From the NCBI GenBank assembly GCA_016219965.1, contig JACRJM010000004.1, positions 372,001 to 436,000 of the forward strand: a stretch of 64,000 bases of DNA, given 5' to 3'. Under the pieces are notes generated by a model that saw only the letters and a program-made list of their open reading frames with translations, was not told the origin of the DNA and did no database searches. A program made the position numbers and the translations under genes. The stretch's first letter is position 1; the number at the start of each line of letters is the position of its first letter. Positions 31,069 to 41,697 of this stretch are shown here, piece by piece. The stretch is from Candidatus Schekmanbacteria bacterium (GTDB lineage: Bacteria > Schekmanbacteria > GWA2-38-11 > J061).

Positions 31069-31341
31069 TTACTCCTCGTCTTCAACATTGCTCCATAAGC
31101 CTTCGTTTGAGAAGGCTTCATGCCCTGAAATATCTTTTATAAATGGCAGGTGACCAATCCAATGCATTGGTTTTACTACCAGATTCTCAAGAAGATAGCC
31201 TGCCGGATAGATTGCATAAGCTGCAACCTTGAAGGGATGAAGAGTTTCGTCGCTTCTTTCAGAATACTCATCCGCAATGGCAGGCAGGCAGAAAGACAGC
31301 ACGAATGTTAATGCCATAAAGCTTATCAATATTTTTTTCAT
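31069..31341 (-). CDS. Small exported protein of unknown function
   Basis: 90 aa with a clear signal peptide (about 1-23, ending PAIADE). The mature part of about 67 residues holds HPFKVAAYAIYPAGYLLENLVVKP, a mildly hydrophobic stretch, then IGHLPFIKDISGHEAF. Small proteins with this YPAGYLLE-type segment occur in several Gram-negative anaerobes, often as a lone gene. I do not know a function. The ribosome-binding site AGGAGGT is good. Probably periplasmic or membrane-associated. Confidence 0.7.
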   Translation of the reverse strand: MKKILISFMALTFVLSFCLPAIADEYSERSDETLHPFKVAAYAIYPAGYLLENLVVKPMHWIGHLPFIKDISGHEAFSNEGLWSNVEDEE

Positions 31342-31497: not shown

Positions 31498-32175
31498 ATG
31501 TTTGACTTCGATAATATGAGCGTCAGGAGATATAATTTTACCTGCTTTTTCAGCCTCTTTATTGTTCAGTTTTTAATAGAACCAATATTTACAAAGGTCA
31601 CTGCAATAAACAATATGCTCACATCCTTTGTCCTTTTGTTTTTCTTTTCTATGGCGATTTTTCTGGGATGGTACGGATGCAGGCTCACAACCCTGAAACA
31701 GGGATACCTCGGTATGTTCTTAGGGCTTTCCTGCTGGTCAGTGGAGGAAACACTTGAAAGGATAGTTCTGCCTGCGCCTGACACAATGTTTTGCCCGTTT
31801 AATGCTGAACACCCTTTATTCTGGGTCAGGTTTGAGGATTTGCCATTCGCTTTTATAATAACGTTTCTCTACCTTATAATTCTCGATTTCGAATTCAAGG
31901 TCACTGACAAGATCCCGCTTCATCTGCAGGTTGCATTTCCATTTATTATGACAGGTTGGATATTGACTGGCCTTGCGCGGGCTAACAGGGCAATATTCGA
32001 ACACAGAGGACCGGGGGCATATCTGATTGTGCTGATATTTGCATCAATATTTCTGATCTCACTTACAAGGCTCTTTGTTGTCAGGAAAGAAGCGGCTCCG
32101 ATATTTTCTGCTTTAAGTACCGGAAGTTTGGTATCAACTGTGTTCGGCCTTGCAGGTCTTATAAAGGCCTTATAA
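31498..32175 (+). CDS. Polytopic membrane protein of unknown function
   Basis: 225 aa with about six or seven hydrophobic segments and short loops. A mid-protein loop has LPAPDTMFCPFNAEHPLFWVRFEDLPF. No catalytic motif or known family is recognised. It starts with an AGGAGGG site at 31498. The TPR/CHAT protein begins about 100 nt downstream on the same strand, so co-expression is possible but the gap leaves room for a promoter. Confidence 0.65.
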   Translation: MFDFDNMSVRRYNFTCFFSLFIVQFLIEPIFTKVTAINNMLTSFVLLFFFSMAIFLGWYGCRLTTLKQGYLGMFLGLSCWSVEETLERIVLPAPDTMFCPFNAEHPLFWVRFEDLPFAFIITFLYLIILDFEFKVTDKIPLHLQVAFPFIMTGWILTGLARANRAIFEHRGPGAYLIVLIFASIFLISLTRLFVVRKEAAPIFSALSTGSLVSTVFGLAGLIKAL

Positions 32176-32275: not shown

Positions 32276-35221
32276 ATGAAAACATATAAGGTTTTTTTAA
32301 TCGCAGCAGTTGTTTCTTTTATTTTGCTTCCGGCTTTGTCCTTTGCGCAGAAGGAGTCTGCAAATAAAGCAACTAAAGAAAGTCCAGTACTTAAAGGAAG
32401 TGTTAAGACCCTTATAGAGCAGGGTAAATTCGAAGATGCACTGAGTGCTTTCAAGCAGTCAAATGCTGATGAAAGCTTCAGTGATGGGGCAAAATATTTC
32501 AGGGAAAAAGACTATGAGAGCGCAATTAAATCATGGCAAAAGGCGCTTGAAGTTTACCGCAAAAATAACAATCGTGATTTTGAAGCTGTTGTACTTGGAA
32601 ATATCGGCAATGCCTACGACGAATCCGGAGACTACGCAAAAGCAATTGAAAATTACAGTTCAGCATTGAAAATCTCGGAGGAACTCCATGATACCGGAAC
32701 AGAAGGAGACATGCTGACAAACATAGGCGTAAGTTTGTGGAAATCAGGCGATTATAAAAAATCGGCTGATAATTTTGAGAAAGCGGCCCTGCTTGAGAAA
32801 AAATCAGGAAGGATTGGGAACGAGGCGTTTAACCTTTACAATCTGGCTAAAGCCCATAAGAAGCTAAAAGATTATGACAAGGCTCTCAAAGCTTATAATG
32901 ATTCGCTTTCTATCTATACAAAAGAAAAAGACAATAGCTCTAAGATGGATGTTTTGACTGATATCGCCTACCTTTATAAAGAAATGGGGCGCACAAAGGA
33001 GGCAAAGGAGAAATTTCTTGAGATCATAAGCTTAAAAGATAAGGCAGGCGATAAAAGTGGAATGGAGGATCTCCTTGAGGCTGTTGTAGAATTAACGAAA
33101 ACAATAGAAGTGCCCGCACCGCAAAAGGAGAAATCTGCAGCGCCGGAAGCAATGGCTCCCCCAATCACCGTACCTCTGGAAGCTAAAATATCTGAAGAGA
33201 TAATAGAGGAAAAAAAGAAGATAGAAGTACCGCAACCAGCACCTGTTGAAGAAAAAAAGGAAGAAGTAACACAAGCATTCATAGTACCCTCAGTGCCATC
33301 AGTACCCTCAGTAATTGATGAATCCATTCTGCAAAATGGTCTTTCACTCGAAAGTGAAGGCCGTCTTGATGAAGCGGTGTCTGTGTACAGGGATGTACTT
33401 AAAAAACTTGAAGGAACTGAAAATAAGCATATGCAATCTGAGGCAATGATAAGGCTTGGAAACCTTCTTGCCATAGATGGCATTTCAGAATCAGAAGATA
33501 TGCTGAAGGCTGCGGACAAAATAGCAATAGAAGAGAAAAATTCATCGGGAGAAGCAAACGCTCTCTGTGCATTGGGAAGGTATTATCTTGCACGAAAAAG
33601 CCTGCCTGAATCGTTGAACTTCTTTATGAGAGGGGAAGCCATATTCAAGGAAATGAATGATTCGTCGGGAGAAGCAATGGCCAAGATCGATATGGGAGAT
33701 TGCTATTTTGCTTCCGGAATGTATGGAGATGCTGAAAGGATGTATAAGTCAGCTTTGGACACAGGGAATAAAGCATTGAACGGACAGATCATCTGGAGAG
33801 CGAAATATGGAATCGCTATGTGTCTGTGGACTAAAAACAGGAATGAAGAGGCGCTTGTTAACATGCTGTCGGCAGTAAATTCCATGGAGGATTCATCGCA
33901 TGGGATTTCTTCAACTTATCTACCTGACAGGAAAAGAAATCAGATTGTGTCAGATATTGTTGAATTGCTTTTGAGACTTTATGATAGCAAGGCAGAGAAA
34001 AAATATGCAGAAGCAGCTTATCTATACAGTGAAGTTGAGTCCTATCAGGATATGACAGAAATATCTTCAAAAGCCATCAGTACGCTGGCAGGTGAGAATT
34101 TTGAAAAATTCTCTTCTTTCAACATCAGAAAAAATGCGATCAATGCAAATGACGAAATACTCATTAAATATATATTTAAGGGGAATTCCTGTTTTGTTTT
34201 CATAATTACAAAAGAAGATCTAAGACTTATAAAACTGGCGTCTTCGAAAGAAAAAATAGACAACCTTGTAGATGAAGTCCTCGCGCCTCTCAAAAAAGTT
34301 TCAGTACTCGGCGAATCAGACTGGATAAACAGGACATTGAGAGAATTTGATTTGAAAAAAGCCGGGGAACTTTATGGCGCTCTTATAACTCCTGTTGAAA
34401 ATTACATCCTCGACAAAAAGGTACTGCTCATCGAACCTACCGGCTCGCTCATCAATCTTCCCTTCGAGCTTCTCGTAAAAAAGGCAGGAAATATGGAAAG
34501 AAGCGACAGCAGCATACTTGCAGAATATTCTGACTCTGTTTATCTGCTTGATGGTTTCTCGGTAATATATGCGCCTCTTGGTGTTTATTTCTCAGAAAAG
34601 CCTGAGCAGGATATAAAGTTTACAAGCGACTTCTGTATGGTTGGCGAAGATAAAGATGCCAGATTTAAGGCTTTCTCAGAAATATTTGCTCCCGAAGGGG
34701 GAAGTCAAAACATAGAAATTCCTTCGAAGTCAGCAATCGCAGATGCGGTTTCCGGATGCAGGATATTACAGTTTCAGATTCCAGCCAATATCAGCGTAGA
34801 CACTAATTTTGAGACAGGACTTATCCTCGATGAAGAGAACAGCAAGGAAATATTAAACGGAGATGAGATAAGCATTATGAAGGGGAACTCAGCGGTTGCC
34901 CTTTTTACGGATTCAGAATTTAAGAGTAGCAGCAAAAGTGAGAGATATAATTATTTGGGACTTGTATCTTCTGTCCTAAGCTCGGGGATTAAGAGTGTTA
35001 TCTATCCATACTGGAAAGGAAACAAATTCTCTTCCCTTGAACTTTTAAAGGAATTTTACAAGACATTAAAAGATACAAAATACCAGTTAAATAAAGGTGA
35101 GGCATTACGGCTTGCTAAAAAGAAAGTACGCGATTCAAACTACAATGATAATACAGGGCCGCACTCGATATCGTTTTCACATCCCTATTTCTGGTCCAAT
35201 CTTGTTCAGGAAGGAAGATAA
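32276..35221 (+). CDS. Secreted TPR-repeat protein with degenerate CHAT domain
   Basis: 981 aa. Signal peptide (about 1-24, ending SFAQ). TPR repeats lie at about 60-290 (AVVLGNIGNAYDESGDYAKAIENY type). A low-complexity linker (about 275-345) is rich in Pro, Glu and Lys with a repeated VPSVPSV. More TPRs follow (about 350-560), then a CHAT-type caspase-like domain (about 620-980). The fold is recognisable from IEPTGSLINLPFELL, SVIYPYWKG and SHPYFWSNLVQ. Where CHAT proteases carry HFATHG and SAC, this has QFQIPAN (about 830) and LFTDSE (about 874), so both catalytic His and Cys are lost. It is likely a binding scaffold. It directly precedes hdrA (18 nt). Confidence 0.82.
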   Translation: MKTYKVFLIAAVVSFILLPALSFAQKESANKATKESPVLKGSVKTLIEQGKFEDALSAFKQSNADESFSDGAKYFREKDYESAIKSWQKALEVYRKNNNRDFEAVVLGNIGNAYDESGDYAKAIENYSSALKISEELHDTGTEGDMLTNIGVSLWKSGDYKKSADNFEKAALLEKKSGRIGNEAFNLYNLAKAHKKLKDYDKALKAYNDSLSIYTKEKDNSSKMDVLTDIAYLYKEMGRTKEAKEKFLEIISLKDKAGDKSGMEDLLEAVVELTKTIEVPAPQKEKSAAPEAMAPPITVPLEAKISEEIIEEKKKIEVPQPAPVEEKKEEVTQAFIVPSVPSVPSVIDESILQNGLSLESEGRLDEAVSVYRDVLKKLEGTENKHMQSEAMIRLGNLLAIDGISESEDMLKAADKIAIEEKNSSGEANALCALGRYYLARKSLPESLNFFMRGEAIFKEMNDSSGEAMAKIDMGDCYFASGMYGDAERMYKSALDTGNKALNGQIIWRAKYGIAMCLWTKNRNEEALVNMLSAVNSMEDSSHGISSTYLPDRKRNQIVSDIVELLLRLYDSKAEKKYAEAAYLYSEVESYQDMTEISSKAISTLAGENFEKFSSFNIRKNAINANDEILIKYIFKGNSCFVFIITKEDLRLIKLASSKEKIDNLVDEVLAPLKKVSVLGESDWINRTLREFDLKKAGELYGALITPVENYILDKKVLLIEPTGSLINLPFELLVKKAGNMERSDSSILAEYSDSVYLLDGFSVIYAPLGVYFSEKPEQDIKFTSDFCMVGEDKDARFKAFSEIFAPEGGSQNIEIPSKSAIADAVSGCRILQFQIPANISVDTNFETGLILDEENSKEILNGDEISIMKGNSAVALFTDSEFKSSSKSERYNYLGLVSSVLSSGIKSVIYPYWKGNKFSSLELLKEFYKTLKDTKYQLNKGEALRLAKKKVRDSNYNDNTGPHSISFSHPYFWSNLVQEGR

Positions 35222-35239: not shown

Positions 35240-38227
35240 ATGTCAGGCATAGGTGGCAAGAAACCTGTCGGCTCAGTCGTTGTTTCCGGTGCAGGAATTG
35301 GGGGAATACAAGCATCCCTTGATCTGGCCGAGATGGGTTATAAGGTTTACCTTTTAGAAAAATCCTCATCCATCGGCGGCAACATGGCATCGCTCGACAA
35401 GACCTTTCCGACAAATGACTGCTCAATGTGCATACTTGGCCCGAAGATTTCAGAGTGCGCCCGTCATCCTAAGATTACAATATTGCCTCTTTCCGAGATA
35501 AGGGAAATCACCGGTGAGCCGGGGAATTTCTGCGTAAAAGTTTTAAAAAAGCCCCGCTTTGTAAGGCAGGAGAAATGCACTGCCTGTGCAGACTGCGTTG
35601 AAGCCTGTCCTGTTGAGGTTGACAATGAATATGAGATGGGGCTGTCAAAAAGGAAAGCGATTTATATCCCTTTCCCGCAGTCAACTCCGAACTGTTATGC
35701 CATAGACTCAGCCGCCTGCACGCGTTGCGGCAAGTGTGCCAAAGCCTGCAAGGCGAGAGCCATATATCTAAACGAAAAAGAAGAAGAGATCGAGATCAAT
35801 GCCGGTGCTGTGATCGTAAGCAGCGGCTACCGTCTGTTTGACCCTCATCTTAGAAAAGAGCTTGGATTCGGTATTTACGAGAATGTCGTAACAGGCAGAC
35901 ATATCGAGAGGATGCTTAGCGCCAGCGGATTCTCTAAAGGAAAAGTCCTTAGACCTTCAGATAAAAAATACCCGGAGAAGGTTGCGTTTATACAGTGCGT
36001 AGGTTCAAGGGACAAGAATAATGGCTTTCCCCACTGCTCATCCGTTTGCTGCATGTATGCCATAAAAGAATCTATCCTCTTAAAAGAAAAACTGGGGAAA
36101 GTTGAATGTTCTGTTTTTTATACTGACCTTAGAACATATGGAAAGGGATTCGAAAGATACTATAACCGTGCACGGGACCAATACGGAATATCATTCAGGC
36201 GAGGGAACATATCTAAGATACGGGAGGTACCTTCCAGCAAGAACCTGCTTTTGCAATATTGTCTCCCTGATGGTTCGGTAAGCGAAGAAGAATTTGACAT
36301 GGTAGTCCTTTCAACAGGGATAGAATCGTCGGCAGATTATCCGGCTGAATTGTCTAACTCTTCGTCAAAAGACAGCTTATGGGGATTTGGGGATGGCATT
36401 TATCTTTGCGGGACAGCACGGGAGCCAATGGATATCCCTGAGACCGTAATAGAGGCAGGCGCTGCATCCGCACTTGCAGGAGCATTGCTATCCGGCGCAG
36501 ACAGCATTCTGACTGACCAGAAAAATTATCCACCTGAAAGCGGAGAAATTTATAATGAGCCGAGAGTAGCGGTTCTTATATGCCACTGCGGAAGCAATAT
36601 AGCCGGCGTAATTGATGTTGTAAAACTTGAGACTGAAGTGGCAAAGCATCCATTTGTGAAAGTAGTTGAGAGGAATGTTTATCTCTGTTCCGAGGACGGG
36701 CAAAGAAGAATGAAGGAGCTTATTGCTGAGAACATGATAAACAGGATTGTGGTCGCTTCATGCAGTCCGCGTACGCATGAGCCTCTTTTTCAGGAAGTGA
36801 TAAGGGAGGCAGGCCTTAACAAGTATCTGCTTGAGATGGCAAACATAAGGGACCACTGCTCATGGGTACATCGCGAGAACCCTGAAGAAGCAACAAACAA
36901 GGCGATGCGACTTATCAACATGGCTGTAAATAAATCAATGCGTCTTGAGCCTTTGAACGAGACAAGCGCAGACGTTGAAAAGAGGTGCCTTGTCGTCGGA
37001 GGAGGCATTGCCGGAATGAGTGCTGCCATAGCTATGGCTGAGCAGGGTGTTGACGTTGTCCTCATTGAAAGAGAAAAAGAGCTTGGCGGGAATTCGCTTA
37101 AACGGAAAATCTCATCAAATGTAAGAAACCCCGCTGATATGGTGACAGCGCTTATAGATAAGCTCCGGAATTGCAGGAACATAGAAGTCCTGACCGAAGC
37201 CGGTATCAAAGAATTCTCAGGCTCAATTGGGAATTTTCATTCTGTCATAGAAACGCAGGATGGAAAAGAGATAGCTCTCTCTCATGGTGCCGCAGTGATA
37301 GCAATTGGCGGAAGGGAATGCCGCCCAAAGAAATATATGCTTGGTGAAGATGAAAGGGTTTTAACGCAAAGTGATTTTGAACAGGTCCTTCTTTCCAATG
37401 GACTTGCCCACAGGAAATTTAAAAATATTGTGATGGTGCAGTGCGTTGGTTCCCGCTCAAAGGATAAGCCCTATTGCAGCAGGGTGTGCTGTACGCAGGC
37501 AGTTGAAAACGCGATCATGGCTAAAAGCCTTATGCCGGAGACAGACATCTATGTCCTTTACAGGGATATGCGCACCTATGGAAAGAAAGAAGAACTTTAC
37601 ACAAGGGCAAGGGAGCTTGGCGTGAGATTCATGAGATTTGAAGAGGAAAATGAGCCTCAGGTAAGAGCAGAGGAAAAACTTCATATTGATATTTTTGATA
37701 CTACTTTTATGGCTGATGTGTCGTTAACCGCAGACCTTCTCGTACTTTCAACAGGCATCGAAGGGAGCGAAGGATGCAAGGAGTTAAGCAGGGTTTTCAA
37801 GATCCCGGTCAACGAAGATTCGTTTCTTTTAGAAGCGCACGCAAAACTTAAACCGGTTGACACTTCGGTTGACGGGGTATTTATATGCGGACTTGCCCAT
37901 GCCCCCAAGAGCTCAACAGAATCAATGCTTCAGGGGCTCGCATGTGCATCAAGGGCAATGACCATTCTTTCAAAGGAAAAAGTAATCCGTGGAGGCGTGA
38001 TTTCTTTCATTGATGAGAATATATGTATAGGATGCCTCAAATGTCTTAAGACTTGCCCCTACGAGGCGGTATATTTCGATGATAGGATGAAGGTCTGCCG
38101 CGTAGATGAAAATAAATGCAAGGGGTGCGGCACATGCGCGGCATGCTGTCCGTCCGGTGCGAACCTGCTTAAAAATTTTAAGTTATCACAGATTATGAGA
38201 CAGATAGAGGGCGCCTTTGAAATCTGA
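35240..38227 (+). CDS. hdrA: Double-length HdrA-like FAD/iron-sulfur subunit
   Basis: 995 aa, two flavoprotein modules in one chain. First module: FAD fold GAGIGGIQA near residue 14, a conserved TNDCSMC cysteine cluster near 60, and two ferredoxin sets (CTACADCVEACP near 113, CTRCGKCAKACK near 160). Second module: fold GGGIAGMSAA near residue 583, a CVGSRSKDKPYCSRVCC region, and a C-terminal double ferredoxin (CIGCLKCLKTCP near 930, CKGCGTCAACCP near 959). This matches QmoA/HdrA2-like proteins that bifurcate or route electrons between ferredoxin and a partner enzyme. MvhD, FdhB-like and FdhA follow, but no HdrB or HdrC is nearby. Confidence 0.92.
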   Translation: MSGIGGKKPVGSVVVSGAGIGGIQASLDLAEMGYKVYLLEKSSSIGGNMASLDKTFPTNDCSMCILGPKISECARHPKITILPLSEIREITGEPGNFCVKVLKKPRFVRQEKCTACADCVEACPVEVDNEYEMGLSKRKAIYIPFPQSTPNCYAIDSAACTRCGKCAKACKARAIYLNEKEEEIEINAGAVIVSSGYRLFDPHLRKELGFGIYENVVTGRHIERMLSASGFSKGKVLRPSDKKYPEKVAFIQCVGSRDKNNGFPHCSSVCCMYAIKESILLKEKLGKVECSVFYTDLRTYGKGFERYYNRARDQYGISFRRGNISKIREVPSSKNLLLQYCLPDGSVSEEEFDMVVLSTGIESSADYPAELSNSSSKDSLWGFGDGIYLCGTAREPMDIPETVIEAGAASALAGALLSGADSILTDQKNYPPESGEIYNEPRVAVLICHCGSNIAGVIDVVKLETEVAKHPFVKVVERNVYLCSEDGQRRMKELIAENMINRIVVASCSPRTHEPLFQEVIREAGLNKYLLEMANIRDHCSWVHRENPEEATNKAMRLINMAVNKSMRLEPLNETSADVEKRCLVVGGGIAGMSAAIAMAEQGVDVVLIEREKELGGNSLKRKISSNVRNPADMVTALIDKLRNCRNIEVLTEAGIKEFSGSIGNFHSVIETQDGKEIALSHGAAVIAIGGRECRPKKYMLGEDERVLTQSDFEQVLLSNGLAHRKFKNIVMVQCVGSRSKDKPYCSRVCCTQAVENAIMAKSLMPETDIYVLYRDMRTYGKKEELYTRARELGVRFMRFEEENEPQVRAEEKLHIDIFDTTFMADVSLTADLLVLSTGIEGSEGCKELSRVFKIPVNEDSFLLEAHAKLKPVDTSVDGVFICGLAHAPKSSTESMLQGLACASRAMTILSKEKVIRGGVISFIDENICIGCLKCLKTCPYEAVYFDDRMKVCRVDENKCKGCGTCAACCPSGANLLKNFKLSQIMRQIEGAFEI

Positions 38228-38636
38228 AGATAAAAAAACTCCTTCAATAATAGCCTTTACCTGTAACTGGTGCAGTTACGCAGGGGCTGACCTTGCCGGT
38301 GTGAGCAGGATACAGTATCCGGCAGATGTTCTTCTCATAAGGGTCATGTGTACAGGTTCAATCTCGCCGCATTATATATTGAAAGCTTTCCAAAAGGGAG
38401 CAAAGGCAGTGCTTGTTGCAGGATGCCATCCGGGAGAGTGCCATTACAACGCTGGAAACCTGATGGCTGAAAAAAGGATGAAAGTCCTTAAAGGAGTGTT
38501 GGGATTTATTGGTTTGCCTGACGGAGCTTTACATCTCGAATGGATATCAGCCTCAGAAGGGATAAAATTTGCAGAGGTGATACAAAAGATTTCAGATAAG
38601 GTGAAAGAGATAAAGCAAGGAAATAAGAAAGAATAA
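38217..38636 (+). CDS. mvhD: MvhD-type [2Fe-2S] hydrogenase/Hdr linker subunit
   Basis: 139 aa. The start is TTG at 38217, overlapping hdrA by 11 nt. The conserved cysteines of the MvhD/FlpD family are present: TCNWCSYAGAD, MCTGSI and GCHPGECHY. The protein normally connects HdrA to a hydrogenase or formate dehydrogenase. Its place between hdrA and the formate dehydrogenase genes supports that role. Hairpin copy 2 and a palindromic repeat follow before the next gene. Confidence 0.93.
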   Translation: MKSEDKKTPSIIAFTCNWCSYAGADLAGVSRIQYPADVLLIRVMCTGSISPHYILKAFQKGAKAVLVAGCHPGECHYNAGNLMAEKRMKVLKGVLGFIGLPDGALHLEWISASEGIKFAEVIQKISDKVKEIKQGNKKE

Positions 38637-38860: not shown

Positions 38861-39658
38861 ATGGATGAGATAAGAGAAAAAATAACTTCGCTGATAAAAG
38901 ACGGAAAGGCAGGCTCTGTGCTTGCCATAGTAAAAAATGGCATTAATGTCATTCCCGTTCAGATCACGGCTCAGAACCTTGATGAAGTTTCAAATATCTG
39001 CCTCGACGAACGGAGGTACCCGATAGAAAAGATGCTTGCATCGGTCATTGATGCGCGCGATGACAGCTCTCCGGTCGGTGTAGTTCTCCGTCCTTGCGAA
39101 AAAGCCGCGGTAATTGAGCTACATAAACTTCAACATATCAATATGGATGACGTAATTCTCATTGATATTGATTGCTCTAAAGAGCTTCGTGATAAATGCG
39201 CCTGCGACTGGAAAGATGATCTTGTTGTTAAAGTTAAGGAAGGGAAGGGATTTTTAAAAGATGAAACCCTTGATACGCTTGAATCCAGTACCAGCAGGGA
39301 AAGATGGGAATTCTGGTCAAAGCATTTCGCAAGGTGCATAAAATGTTATGGGTGTAGGAATGTCTGTCCTGTCTGTATATGCAAGGCTTGCTGTCTTGAG
39401 GAAGCGGATGTTGTCGAGAAAGGTGAACTGCCTCCTGAGTTTCCCATTTTCCATCTTGCACGGGCAGTTGACGTTGCAGGCAGATGCATAGACTGCGGAA
39501 AGTGCGAAGAGGCATGCCCGGTAGATATACCGTTGAGATTGATCCATAAAAAAGTATTCAGGGATTTTATCCGTGACTTTAAATATATCCCCGGCGCGTC
39601 AATTGATGAAAAATGCCCTCTTGATTTTATTGAAAGCATAAAAGAGGAGGGCGACTGA
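38861..39658 (+). CDS. FdhB/FrhB-like iron-sulfur protein linking Hdr to formate dehydrogenase
   Basis: 265 aa. The N-terminal half (NVIPVQITAQNLDEVSN, VLRPCEKAAVIEL) matches the FrhB/FdhB flavin-binding region. A Cys-rich block follows near residue 158, CIKCYGCRNVCPVCICKACC, and a second ferredoxin set near 208, CIDCGKCEEACP. This is the usual beta subunit that passes electrons from FdhA to the Hdr/MvhD module, or to F420 in methanogens. The stop overlaps the start of FdhA by one base. F420 binding here is not implied by the sequence. Confidence 0.85.
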   Translation: MDEIREKITSLIKDGKAGSVLAIVKNGINVIPVQITAQNLDEVSNICLDERRYPIEKMLASVIDARDDSSPVGVVLRPCEKAAVIELHKLQHINMDDVILIDIDCSKELRDKCACDWKDDLVVKVKEGKGFLKDETLDTLESSTSRERWEFWSKHFARCIKCYGCRNVCPVCICKACCLEEADVVEKGELPPEFPIFHLARAVDVAGRCIDCGKCEEACPVDIPLRLIHKKVFRDFIRDFKYIPGASIDEKCPLDFIESIKEEGD

Positions 39659-41697
39659 TGGCTCTGGTAAAATGGGTTCCAACAACGTGTGTCTATTGCG
39701 GCTGCGGCTGCGGACTTCTTCTCGAGGCAGCCGGAGGCAAAATCACAAAAGCACTTCCACAGCCCGCCCATCCTGTGAGCGATGCAAGGCTTTGCATAAA
39801 GGGGTGGAATATCCACCAGTTCATCCATAATGAAAAGCGCCTTAAAAAACCTCTCATAAAAAAGAATGGGAGCTTTGTTGAAGCTGATTGGAATGAGGCG
39901 GTCTCTTTGATTGCAGAAAAGATAGGAAGTACAATCAAAGCGTATGGAGCTGATTCAACCGGTTTTTTAAGTTCTGCAAAATGCACCAATGAGGAAAATT
40001 ATCTCTTCCAGAAATTCGTCCGCTCAGTGATTGGTACTAATAACGTAGACCACTGCGCAAGGCTTTGCCATGCGTCGACAGTTGCAGGTCTTGCCGGCTC
40101 TTTTGGAAGCGGCGCCATGACCAATTCAATACCCGACCTTGAGCAGTCAAAATGCCTCTTTATCATTGGCTCCAACACAACTGAACAGCATCCATTGGTT
40201 GCCACAAGGTTATACCGGGCATTAAAAAATGGGTGCAAAATAATAGTAGCTGACCCCCGCAATATCCCCATTTCACGCTTTGCCTCGCTTCATTTAAAGC
40301 ATAAGCCCGGCAGCGACATCGCGCTGATAAATAGCATGATACATGTTATTCTCTCAGGGGGGTTGATGGACAAGGAGTTTATAGATGCGAGGACTGAAGG
40401 ATTTGATGAGTTAAAGGCATCGGTTGCAGATTATACACCGGAAGAGGCTCAAAAGATAACAGGTCTTAAAAAAGAAGATATTGTCAATGCTGCGATTCTT
40501 TATTCCAAAAACAAACCATCTGCCATCATCTATTCTATGGGAATAACCCAGCATATAACAGGCACTGATAATGTACGCGCACTTGCAAATCTCGCTATGG
40601 TTACAGGGAATATTGGAAAGCCAGGTACAGGCGTGAATCCATTAAGAGGACACCAGAATGTTCAAGGCTCCTGCGACATGGGGGCGCTTCCTAATCTCCT
40701 CCCAGGTTACCAGGCAGTGACAGATAGCTCATTGCGCGGAAAGTTTGAGTCTGTCTGGCAGTGTAAAATACCGGCGCAGAATGGAATAACTTTGACTGAG
40801 ATGATGGGGGAAGCAGGGGAGGGGAAAATAAAATCCATGTTCATAATGGGAGAGAATCCGGTAGTTACGGATCCTGACTCAACCCACGTGGCGCACGCCC
40901 TTAAATCCCTTGATTTCCTTGCAGTGCAGGACATATTCATGACAGAGACTGCGGAATTTGCAGATGTTGTGCTTCCTGCCGCATGCTTTGCAGAGAAAGA
41001 AGGGACATTTACAAACACAGACAGAAGAGTGCAGAGAGTGAGAAAAGCAGTTAATCCGCCGGGTGAGGCAAAGGCGGATTGGGAGGCTATCAATCTGCTT
41101 GCATCAGCATTTAAAGCAAAGGGGTTTGATTTTAAAACAGCAGAAGAAATATTCGATGAGATGCGCTCTCTTACTCCTCAGTATGCAGGGATAACCTATG
41201 AACGTCTTGAACGCGAGAGCTTACAATGGCCATGCACTTCAGAGACCCATAAGGGAACACCTGTTCTCCACTTGACGCAATTTACAAGAGGGAAGGGGAA
41301 GATATTTGATATAAAATTTAAAGAAGCTGCAGAGCGGGCTGATGATGATTTCCCATTTATTTTAACTACTGGAAGACTCTATTTTCTTTTTCATTCAAAC
41401 ACCATGACCGGCAGGTCTCCATCACTTAATGCTGAAGTAAACAGGGCATTCCTTGAAATAAATCCCGCGGACGCAGAAAAGCTTGGAATAAAAAACAGTG
41501 AATATGTTGAAGTTGAATCAAGGCGCGGCTCGGTTAAGGTTAAGGCAAAGGTAACTGAAGGGATTAGAGAGGGAGTGGTTTTCATGCCATTTCATTTTGC
41601 GAAGGAAGCGGCGAATGTGTTGACGGGAAGACATTTGGATCCAATCGCGAAGATACCGGAGTTTAAGGTTTCTGCTGTCAGGATTAAAAAATCCTGA
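39658..41697 (+). CDS. fdhA: Formate dehydrogenase alpha subunit, molybdopterin type (Cys form)
   Basis: 679 aa. The N-terminal [4Fe-4S] motif is CVYCGCGCG with CIKGW later. The catalytic region is HCARLCHAST (about 131-140): the metal ligand is an ordinary Cys codon (TGC), not selenocysteine. Downstream are GANP-type and NPVVTDPDSTH cofactor motifs and the C-terminal dinucleotide-binding domain (TGRLYFLFHSNTMTGRS). It interconverts formate and CO2 using molybdenum or tungsten bis-pterin. With FdhB-like, MvhD and HdrA it forms a putative electron-bifurcating formate complex. Confidence 0.94.
   Translation: MALVKWVPTTCVYCGCGCGLLLEAAGGKITKALPQPAHPVSDARLCIKGWNIHQFIHNEKRLKKPLIKKNGSFVEADWNEAVSLIAEKIGSTIKAYGADSTGFLSSAKCTNEENYLFQKFVRSVIGTNNVDHCARLCHASTVAGLAGSFGSGAMTNSIPDLEQSKCLFIIGSNTTEQHPLVATRLYRALKNGCKIIVADPRNIPISRFASLHLKHKPGSDIALINSMIHVILSGGLMDKEFIDARTEGFDELKASVADYTPEEAQKITGLKKEDIVNAAILYSKNKPSAIIYSMGITQHITGTDNVRALANLAMVTGNIGKPGTGVNPLRGHQNVQGSCDMGALPNLLPGYQAVTDSSLRGKFESVWQCKIPAQNGITLTEMMGEAGEGKIKSMFIMGENPVVTDPDSTHVAHALKSLDFLAVQDIFMTETAEFADVVLPAACFAEKEGTFTNTDRRVQRVRKAVNPPGEAKADWEAINLLASAFKAKGFDFKTAEEIFDEMRSLTPQYAGITYERLERESLQWPCTSETHKGTPVLHLTQFTRGKGKIFDIKFKEAAERADDDFPFILTTGRLYFLFHSNTMTGRSPSLNAEVNRAFLEINPADAEKLGIKNSEYVEVESRRGSVKVKAKVTEGIREGVVFMPFHFAKEAANVLTGRHLDPIAKIPEFKVSAVRIKKS

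Follow-up and report, generated by a model that had tools for sequence, protein, structure and literature searches.

The closest described systems to the protein reported here are the CHAT proteases (Pfam family PF12770), the Csx29/TPR-CHAT protease of type III-E CRISPR systems (Craspase, CASP) and the bacterial pseudo-orthocaspases, of which SyOC of Synechocystis is reportedly an example. We analysed a 64,000-nucleotide stretch of a Candidatus Schekmanbacteria genome (contig JACRJM010000004.1, positions 372,001 to 436,000; the window), and in it a gene for a TPR protein with a C-terminal CHAT domain that lies directly before hdr and fdh genes. With a probability of roughly 0.6, we read its product as a TPR/pseudo-CHAT protein that lacks catalysis, is probably exported and most likely serves as a scaffold in the periplasm.

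Catalytic dyads of CHAT proteases have been published as H585/C627 (PMC9729208) and H615/C658 (PMC10028731). Pseudo-versions of bacterial p20-type caspase homologs are already known. In PMC6426788, 8.6% of bacterial orthocaspases are described as being without the His-Cys dyad, commonly with Tyr and Ser instead, and the YS variant as having an N-terminal extension that resembles a twin-arginine translocation (TAT) signal. A pseudo-caspase half is likewise known from Csx29, where CHAT1 lies beside an active CHAT2 (PMC10028731). The open-access literature searched describes no free-standing exported TPR protein with a dead domain as its sole detected CHAT.

The window protein resembles the CHAT family in its fold profile over the whole domain and in the TPRs that precede it, but differs in that both the catalytic His and the catalytic Cys are replaced. 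With Csx29 it shares the combination of TPR and CHAT. Unlike Csx29, which is the protease partner of the Cas7-11/gRAMP effector and has a His-Cys dyad, it has no dyad and carries an export signal. No gRAMP/Cas7-11, Csx30 or sigma factor was recognised among the open reading frames (ORFs) of at least 90 aa at 24.7-42.0 kb (Pfam on seven neighbours, with no dedicated CRISPR search). The pseudo-orthocaspases are also bacterial caspase-fold proteins with a replaced dyad, but theirs carry a p20 domain; p20 (Peptidase_C14) was not among the matches listed for the window protein (25 of 29 Pfam matches, E up to 0.1).

Homology to CHAT proteases and the catalytic positions

A preliminary description, made from the letters of the stretch alone, had proposed a C-terminal CHAT domain that retains its fold motifs and has lost both catalytic residues. 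All of this is borne out. The C-terminus matches PF12770 with 53.2 bits (cut-off 24), and a hidden Markov model (HMM) of our own, made from 127 CHAT domain rows without the window protein and its ortholog, scores it at 84 bits. That ortholog is encoded by Candidatus Schekmanbacteria bacterium GWA2_38_11 (G003), one of four Schekmanbacteria genomes compared. Aligned with hhalign against 14 CHAT domains, the pair of window protein and ortholog gives a probability of 99.85 (E 1.1e-30). The fold motifs INLPFELL, SVIYPYWKG and PYFWSNL are found at residues 726, 907 and 970.

Alignment at both catalytic positions was a check set out beforehand. The HMM alignment places P836 in the catalytic His column and S880 in the catalytic Cys column. 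Profile-profile alignment agrees, with FQIPAN opposite FATHGM and FTDSEF opposite LSACET of the 14 other CHATs. The spacing of P836 and S880 is 44, near the 42 and 43 of the published dyads. The GWA2_38_11 ortholog also has Pro in the His column and retains Cys889 (VLDNCEYN). A frame error as the cause of the dead site is ruled out by the open frame and by the same His-to-Pro change in the ortholog. Judged by its sequence, the window protein is a homolog of the CHAT proteases and not a member: it matches the PF12770 profile and lacks the His-Cys dyad. Canonical dyad activity has very probably been lost.

Searches of the PDB with the window CHAT sequence and with a two-sequence profile recovered no relative (one unrelated weak match and none), whereas a profile of the 14 other CHATs matches Csx29/TPR-CHAT and, weakly, separase. 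Thus, the window member is too diverged for direct detection. The TPRs have many Pfam matches (TPR_12, 133.7 bits). The PADLOC matches of the protein were three of the TPR type and a weak one to PDC-S39. This is the sole CHAT gene found in the window genome.

Predicted export signal

By an in-house heuristic and by reading of the sequence, the N-terminus, MKTYKVFLIAAVVSFILLPALSFA|Q, looks like a Sec signal peptide. By eye, its n-, h- and c-regions are canonical, with a cleavage site SFA|Q. Hydrophobicity over 19 residues peaks in the stretch that begins at residue 6 (2.59) and reaches at most 1.44 past residue 40; beyond the N-terminus no stretch is hydrophobic enough for a membrane helix. The GWA2_38_11 ortholog is signal-positive by the same heuristic, and the homolog in a third genome of the phylum (G001) is signal-like by eye.

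The predicted signal peptide agrees with the preliminary description, which had further held that export sets this CHAT protein apart. The second point fails. Among dyad-intact CHAT proteins with a readable start, 26 of 96 have a signal-like N-terminus. This is a minimum: L072, whose signal is clear by eye, escapes the heuristic. Internal control starts gave positives in 1/119, 1/118 and 0/111 cases. Because of this difference, export is, as far as such predictions go, ordinary within the CHAT family, which rules it out as an unusual feature of the window protein; the nearest relatives outside the phylum are themselves exported TPR-CHATs. Of the exported pseudo-CHAT beside Hdr-Fdh genes described initially, the two replaced catalytic positions and the signal-like N-terminus stand, and the supposed unusualness of export does not.

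Dyad state across CHAT proteins

We scanned 123 loci (the window, L004, L036 and L067-L186), and 121 of them yielded 127 CHAT proteins, the window protein and its ortholog included. Of 290 genomes searched, 80 bear CHAT genes, and the loci represent 77 of these plus one Bacteroidota record; the proteins are 123 distinct ones by identity of the last 200 residues. Both dyad residues are kept in 111/127. At least one is replaced in eight proteins (seven distinct), and a further eight have a gap at one dyad column and were left uncalled. Given as His column/Cys column, the replaced dyads are P/S in the window protein, P/C in GWA2_38_11, H/W in L070, Y/C in L080 and L110, R/W in L183, and R/H in L093 and L094. 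Four of these eight proteins have signal-like N-termini. In the aligned sequences, CHATs with a replaced catalytic residue arise repeatedly and in different architectures.

The L094 protein (L299:413-3937, genome G130) is an R/H-dyad CHAT fused to a Clp_N/AAA (ClpB-like) ATPase; L093 (genome G266) has an identical CHAT end and comes from a second species of the genus. The L183 protein (L300) has a PD40-TPR-CHAT architecture. L070 and its intact paralog L069 share 81% identity and a conserved pocket, so the Cys-to-Trp replacement in L070 might reflect a recent substitution or an error in sequencing. Among the Schekmanbacteria, G002 encodes an adenylate/guanylate cyclase domain fused to an intact-dyad CHAT with a CsgG-like C-terminus (L156:9216-12131). 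G003 has a similar incomplete protein, the fragment having CHAT, TPR and CsgG (L165:3-2270).

Constraint on the probably dead domain

Twenty-three columns are conserved in at least 75% of the dyad-intact proteins, and the window protein keeps 13 of them. Losses concentrate at the five charged or catalytic columns (E95, H130, H134, C179 and D216; H134 and C179 themselves define the dyad-intact comparison set), where all five are replaced in the window protein and four in GWA2_38_11. The other 18 columns are kept at 13 and 12 positions, respectively. For the window protein this skew has a hypergeometric probability of 0.0075, with the grouping made after the columns had been seen.

The two orthologs are 45% identical over the fold columns 1-70, and 23% and 13% identical around the His and the Cys. 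Dyad-intact pairs reach at most 44% over the same columns (0 of 2,821 higher). Pocket identity minus N-block identity is -0.27 for the ortholog pair, a single data point, against a mean of +0.09 (standard deviation 0.08) for the dyad-intact pairs, whose pocket is on average the better conserved part; none of the 2,821 is as low. These pairs were taken at 22-36% overall identity, with 70% or more of the columns filled in each block; they come from 94 proteins and are not independent.

By region, the window protein and its GWA2_38_11 ortholog are 31% identical in the CHAT domain, 29% in TPR block A and 20.5% in TPR block B; block A is 43% identical between the window protein and the G001 homolog. 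The N part of the CHAT domain (residues 691-790) is the best conserved section between window protein and ortholog, at 42%. The catalytic half (791-978) is at 25%, and the Cys block has 3 of 23 residues identical. We find the fold kept and the pocket free to change, as in a pseudo-CHAT, in two orthologs only. The domain thus seems to show shifted constraint rather than plain decay, and is probably still under selection. Since the orthologs keep its non-catalytic N-terminal fold part as well as or better than the TPRs, it is probably still needed.

A decaying domain, functionless and drifting while the TPR blocks alone work, would account for the loss of both catalytic residues in the window protein and for the low identity of the catalytic half. 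We consider it unlikely, as the N part is the best conserved section, the SHPYFW and LPFE motifs are retained, and the frame is intact in both genomes.

Relatives outside the phylum and a possible link to sigma factors

Outside the phylum, the highest-scoring matches are TPR-CHATs from the genomes G192, G060 and G096; all have signal- or lipoprotein-like N-termini. Those of G060 and G192 share with the window protein a signal-like N-terminus (called by eye for L072 and by the heuristic for L069, L070 and L073), TPRs and a C-terminal CHAT. They differ in that the dyad is intact in L069, L072 and L073, L070 with its Cys-to-Trp change being the exception. The segment around the LPFELL insert, 28 residues long, has the same length in the GWA2_38_11 ortholog and in two TPR-CHATs of G060. 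After LPFE, a 28-residue segment occurs in 4/127 CHAT proteins and a 29-residue one in a single protein; most have 11-14.

In a tree of 110 domains, the window and GWA2_38_11 sequences group together (support 0.98). The node above them joins 83 sequences (0.90), too many for the tree to single out the closest outside relative; the shortest branch lengths to the window CHAT are those of L070, L069 and L073. No relatives of the window CHAT were found in the viral contigs searched. Pattern searches of these contigs gave 1, 12 and 0 stretches: the single one was without CHAT, and the 12 held no convincing CHAT (one 13-bit match to a 109-residue ORF).

Two of these relatives have a distinctive gene context. 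Genes for an extracytoplasmic function (ECF) sigma factor and an anti-sigma-like protein lie directly upstream of the exported, dyad-intact TPR-CHATs L069 (L254:8450-9952, G060) and L072 (L255:3372-5058, G192), unlike at the window gene. The anti-sigma-like proteins are laid out as a membrane anti-sigma factor would be, with a zf-HC2 match, TPR matches and a single strongly hydrophobic stretch. The zf-HC2 match is above the cut-off in L255 (31 bits) and in another CHAT locus, L283 (25.6), and below it in L254 (17.9, cut-off 22.2). G060 has two exported TPR-CHAT paralogs (L253:4855-8049 and L254:5198-8389), with CHAT domains 81% identical. At L253 (L070), L256 (L071) and L258 (L073), no upstream sigma/anti-sigma pair was seen, with Pfam run on 3, 2 and 0 neighbours.

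A sigma-70 match above the Pfam cut-off occurs in at least 8 of 48 CHAT loci, Pfam having been run on picked ORFs: L254, L255, L275 (sigma on the opposite strand), L282, L283, L291, L297 and L298. The last two are the loci of the Tyr-for-His CHAT proteins. L267, L268, L284 and L289 hold candidates below the cut-off. A neighbour in L272 was rejected as a sigma factor, being NifU/rhodanese and FecR instead. The partner protein has a hydrophobic stretch (1.9-2.7) in L254, L255, L268, L284 and L297, and none in L282 and L283. As the L284 CHAT has no signal peptide but has a membrane partner, membrane partner and export are not strictly coupled. Sigma genes lie upstream of CHAT genes whether or not the CHAT protein has a signal peptide; the pairing is therefore not confined to exported CHATs. 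CHAT-domain proteins have been noted in the context of ECF54 (review, PMC8999054). For the intact exported TPR-CHATs behind ECF sigma and anti-sigma-like genes, this arrangement suggests a job in cutting the anti-sigma factor from the periplasmic side.

The window protein could then be a pseudoprotease of envelope signalling, descended from sigma-linked exported TPR-CHATs, that binds an uncut membrane regulator and tunes the downstream Fdh-Hdr genes. The context of the two best outside relatives (G192, G060) is consistent with this, as is the cleavage by Csx29 of Csx30, an inhibitor of a sigma factor (PMC10028731). We nevertheless regard it as quite improbable, since no sigma or anti-sigma gene was recognised near the window gene (ORF list; Pfam on seven neighbours), and the readable upstream side in GWA2_38_11 extends over 735 bp only. 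Slightly more speculative is the idea of a non-cutting sensor or trap of the same ancestry, which might link the state of the envelope to expression of the cytoplasmic Fdh/Hdr operon. If true, it would be an envelope counterpart of the pseudo-orthocaspases.

Proposed role and remaining alternatives

The CHAT part of the window protein holds only two His residues, H963 and H969, near the C-terminus. An active site might have relocated, with H963, or possibly H969, pairing with Ser880 (Cys889 in the ortholog) in a protein that is still a hydrolase. H963 (PHxISxSHPYFW) occurs in 2 of the 34 proteins with HPYxW-type motifs, namely the window protein and the GWA2_38_11 ortholog, and the latter keeps its Cys. 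Against such a site, H969 belongs to the HPYFW motif that dyad-intact CHATs also carry and is probably structural, the charged residues of the pocket and the first His are lost too, and the orthologs share little of the Cys block. We therefore judge a relocated site very unlikely. Least probable of all is an ordinary cytoplasmic or membrane-anchored protein whose N-terminal stretch is an uncleaved anchor or unused: the export call is a heuristic prediction, but the canonical signal regions, the lack of another transmembrane (TM)-like stretch and the similar N-termini of both homologs speak for export.

As a pseudo-CHAT scaffold, the protein would have arisen when the C-terminal CHAT of an exported TPR protein turned into a pseudoprotease that binds partners instead of cutting them. 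The His would have been lost first, before the window and GWA2_38_11 lineages split, and the Cys later; by parsimony, this follows from the Pro that both orthologs have at the His position and the Cys that only GWA2_38_11 keeps. In the periplasm, the pseudo-CHAT and the TPR blocks, which a long charged linker connects, could hold partner proteins or peptides. Its ancestors may have been exported TPR-CHAT proteases like those beside membrane-bound anti-sigma-like proteins in other bacteria, in which case the Schekmanbacteria branch would have lost both catalysis and the sigma/anti-sigma context. With an intermediate in a relative that has lost the His but still has the Cys, the gene is a natural case for studying roles of the CHAT fold other than cleavage.

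Several observations weigh against the scaffold. Retention of 13 of the 23 conserved columns lies inside the range of the dyad-intact proteins (8 to 23), 12 of 111 of which keep fewer than 13. The GWA2_38_11 ortholog still has its Cys, and the CHAT part is present in two orthologs only, the homolog in G001, a genome of the same family, being cut by the contig end before the CHAT. H963, conserved in the two orthologs alone, might in principle take over as catalytic His. AlphaFold2 predictions of the C-terminal part are not interpretable (mean predicted local distance difference test scores, pLDDT, of 37.0 and 33.4), most likely due to too few related sequences; the input had three rows each (window protein, GWA2_38_11 ortholog and a Bacteroidota CHAT). 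In G001 the TPR gene and the fdhA ortholog are not adjacent, and G002 (99% complete) has fdh genes while the C-terminal part of the TPR protein is unmatched there. The link between the TPR gene and Fdh is therefore not universal.

Gene organization and neighbourhood

The features of the gene and its neighbours are listed in Table 1. The window protein is 26% identical to its GWA2_38_11 homolog and 36-37% to that of G001, and charged linkers occur at the matching place in both. A scan of the locus for promoters and terminators gave signals no better than shuffles.

Table 1. Features of the TPR/pseudo-CHAT gene and neighbouring genes (positions in the window)
Feature	Position	Strand	Evidence and remarks
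90-aa secreted-looking protein	31069..31341	-	divergent; no Pfam match above cut-off
225-aa membrane protein, five TM-like stretches	31498..32175	+	no Pfam match
Whole gene, predicted exported TPR/pseudo-CHAT protein, 981 aa	32276..35221	+	uninterrupted open frame from ATG at 32276 to stop ending at 35221; Pfam; homologs in G003 and G001
Signal peptide, residues 1-24	32276..32347	+	sequence reading and heuristic; cleavage after SFA by eye
TPR block A, residues ~61-275	32456..33100	+	Pfam TPR_12 and others; borders by eye
Pro/Lys/Glu-rich linker, residues ~276-347	33101..33316	+	composition
TPR block B, residues ~348-590	33317..34045	+	Pfam TPR matches; borders by eye
Pseudo-CHAT domain, residues ~696-978	34361..35209	+	PF12770, own HMM, hhalign
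17-residue insert after LPFELL, residues 734-750	34475..34525	+	segment-length comparison
Catalytic His position, now Pro836	34781..34783	+	HMM and profile-profile alignment
Catalytic Cys position, now Ser880	34913..34915	+	HMM and profile-profile alignment
HdrA2-like flavoprotein with 4Fe-4S domains	35240..38227	+	starts 18 bp after TPR gene
FlpD/MvhD	38217..38636	+	Pfam PF02662, 163.5 bits
4Fe-4S protein	38861..39658	+	Pfam
Formate dehydrogenase alpha subunit (FdhA)	39658..41697	+	TIGR01591, 869 bits; no export signal seen

The Hdr-Fdh genes adjoin the TPR gene as first described, with genes for an HdrA-type protein, FlpD/MvhD, an Fe-S protein and FdhA downstream on the same strand. The TPR gene stands directly before hdr/fdh genes in both genomes with a readable downstream side; in GWA2_38_11 it overlaps by 4 bases with the fdhA ortholog, whose product is 53% identical to the window FdhA. 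No export signal was seen in the Fdh and Hdr proteins; joint expression therefore seems likelier than physical contact, and a physical partnership with these enzymes was rejected on the same ground. The TPR/pseudo-CHAT protein would thus be co-produced with the formate dehydrogenase without touching these cytoplasmic-looking enzymes.

The 225-aa membrane protein could be a partner. Its 54% identical homolog in G001 is also encoded directly upstream of the TPR gene; no homolog was found in G002 or in G003, where the readable upstream side is the short one given above.

Small secreted-looking ORFs, alike by reading and with no Pfam match that passes the cut-off, occur at window positions 31069-31341 (minus strand), L005:2634-2921 and L190:3720-4265. 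The small ORF is divergent beside the membrane-protein gene in the window and in G001, and a similar one adjoins fdhA in G002. By eye, they share a motif of roughly AYxxYPxGYxLE..VVKPxHW..LPF.KDISGHE.

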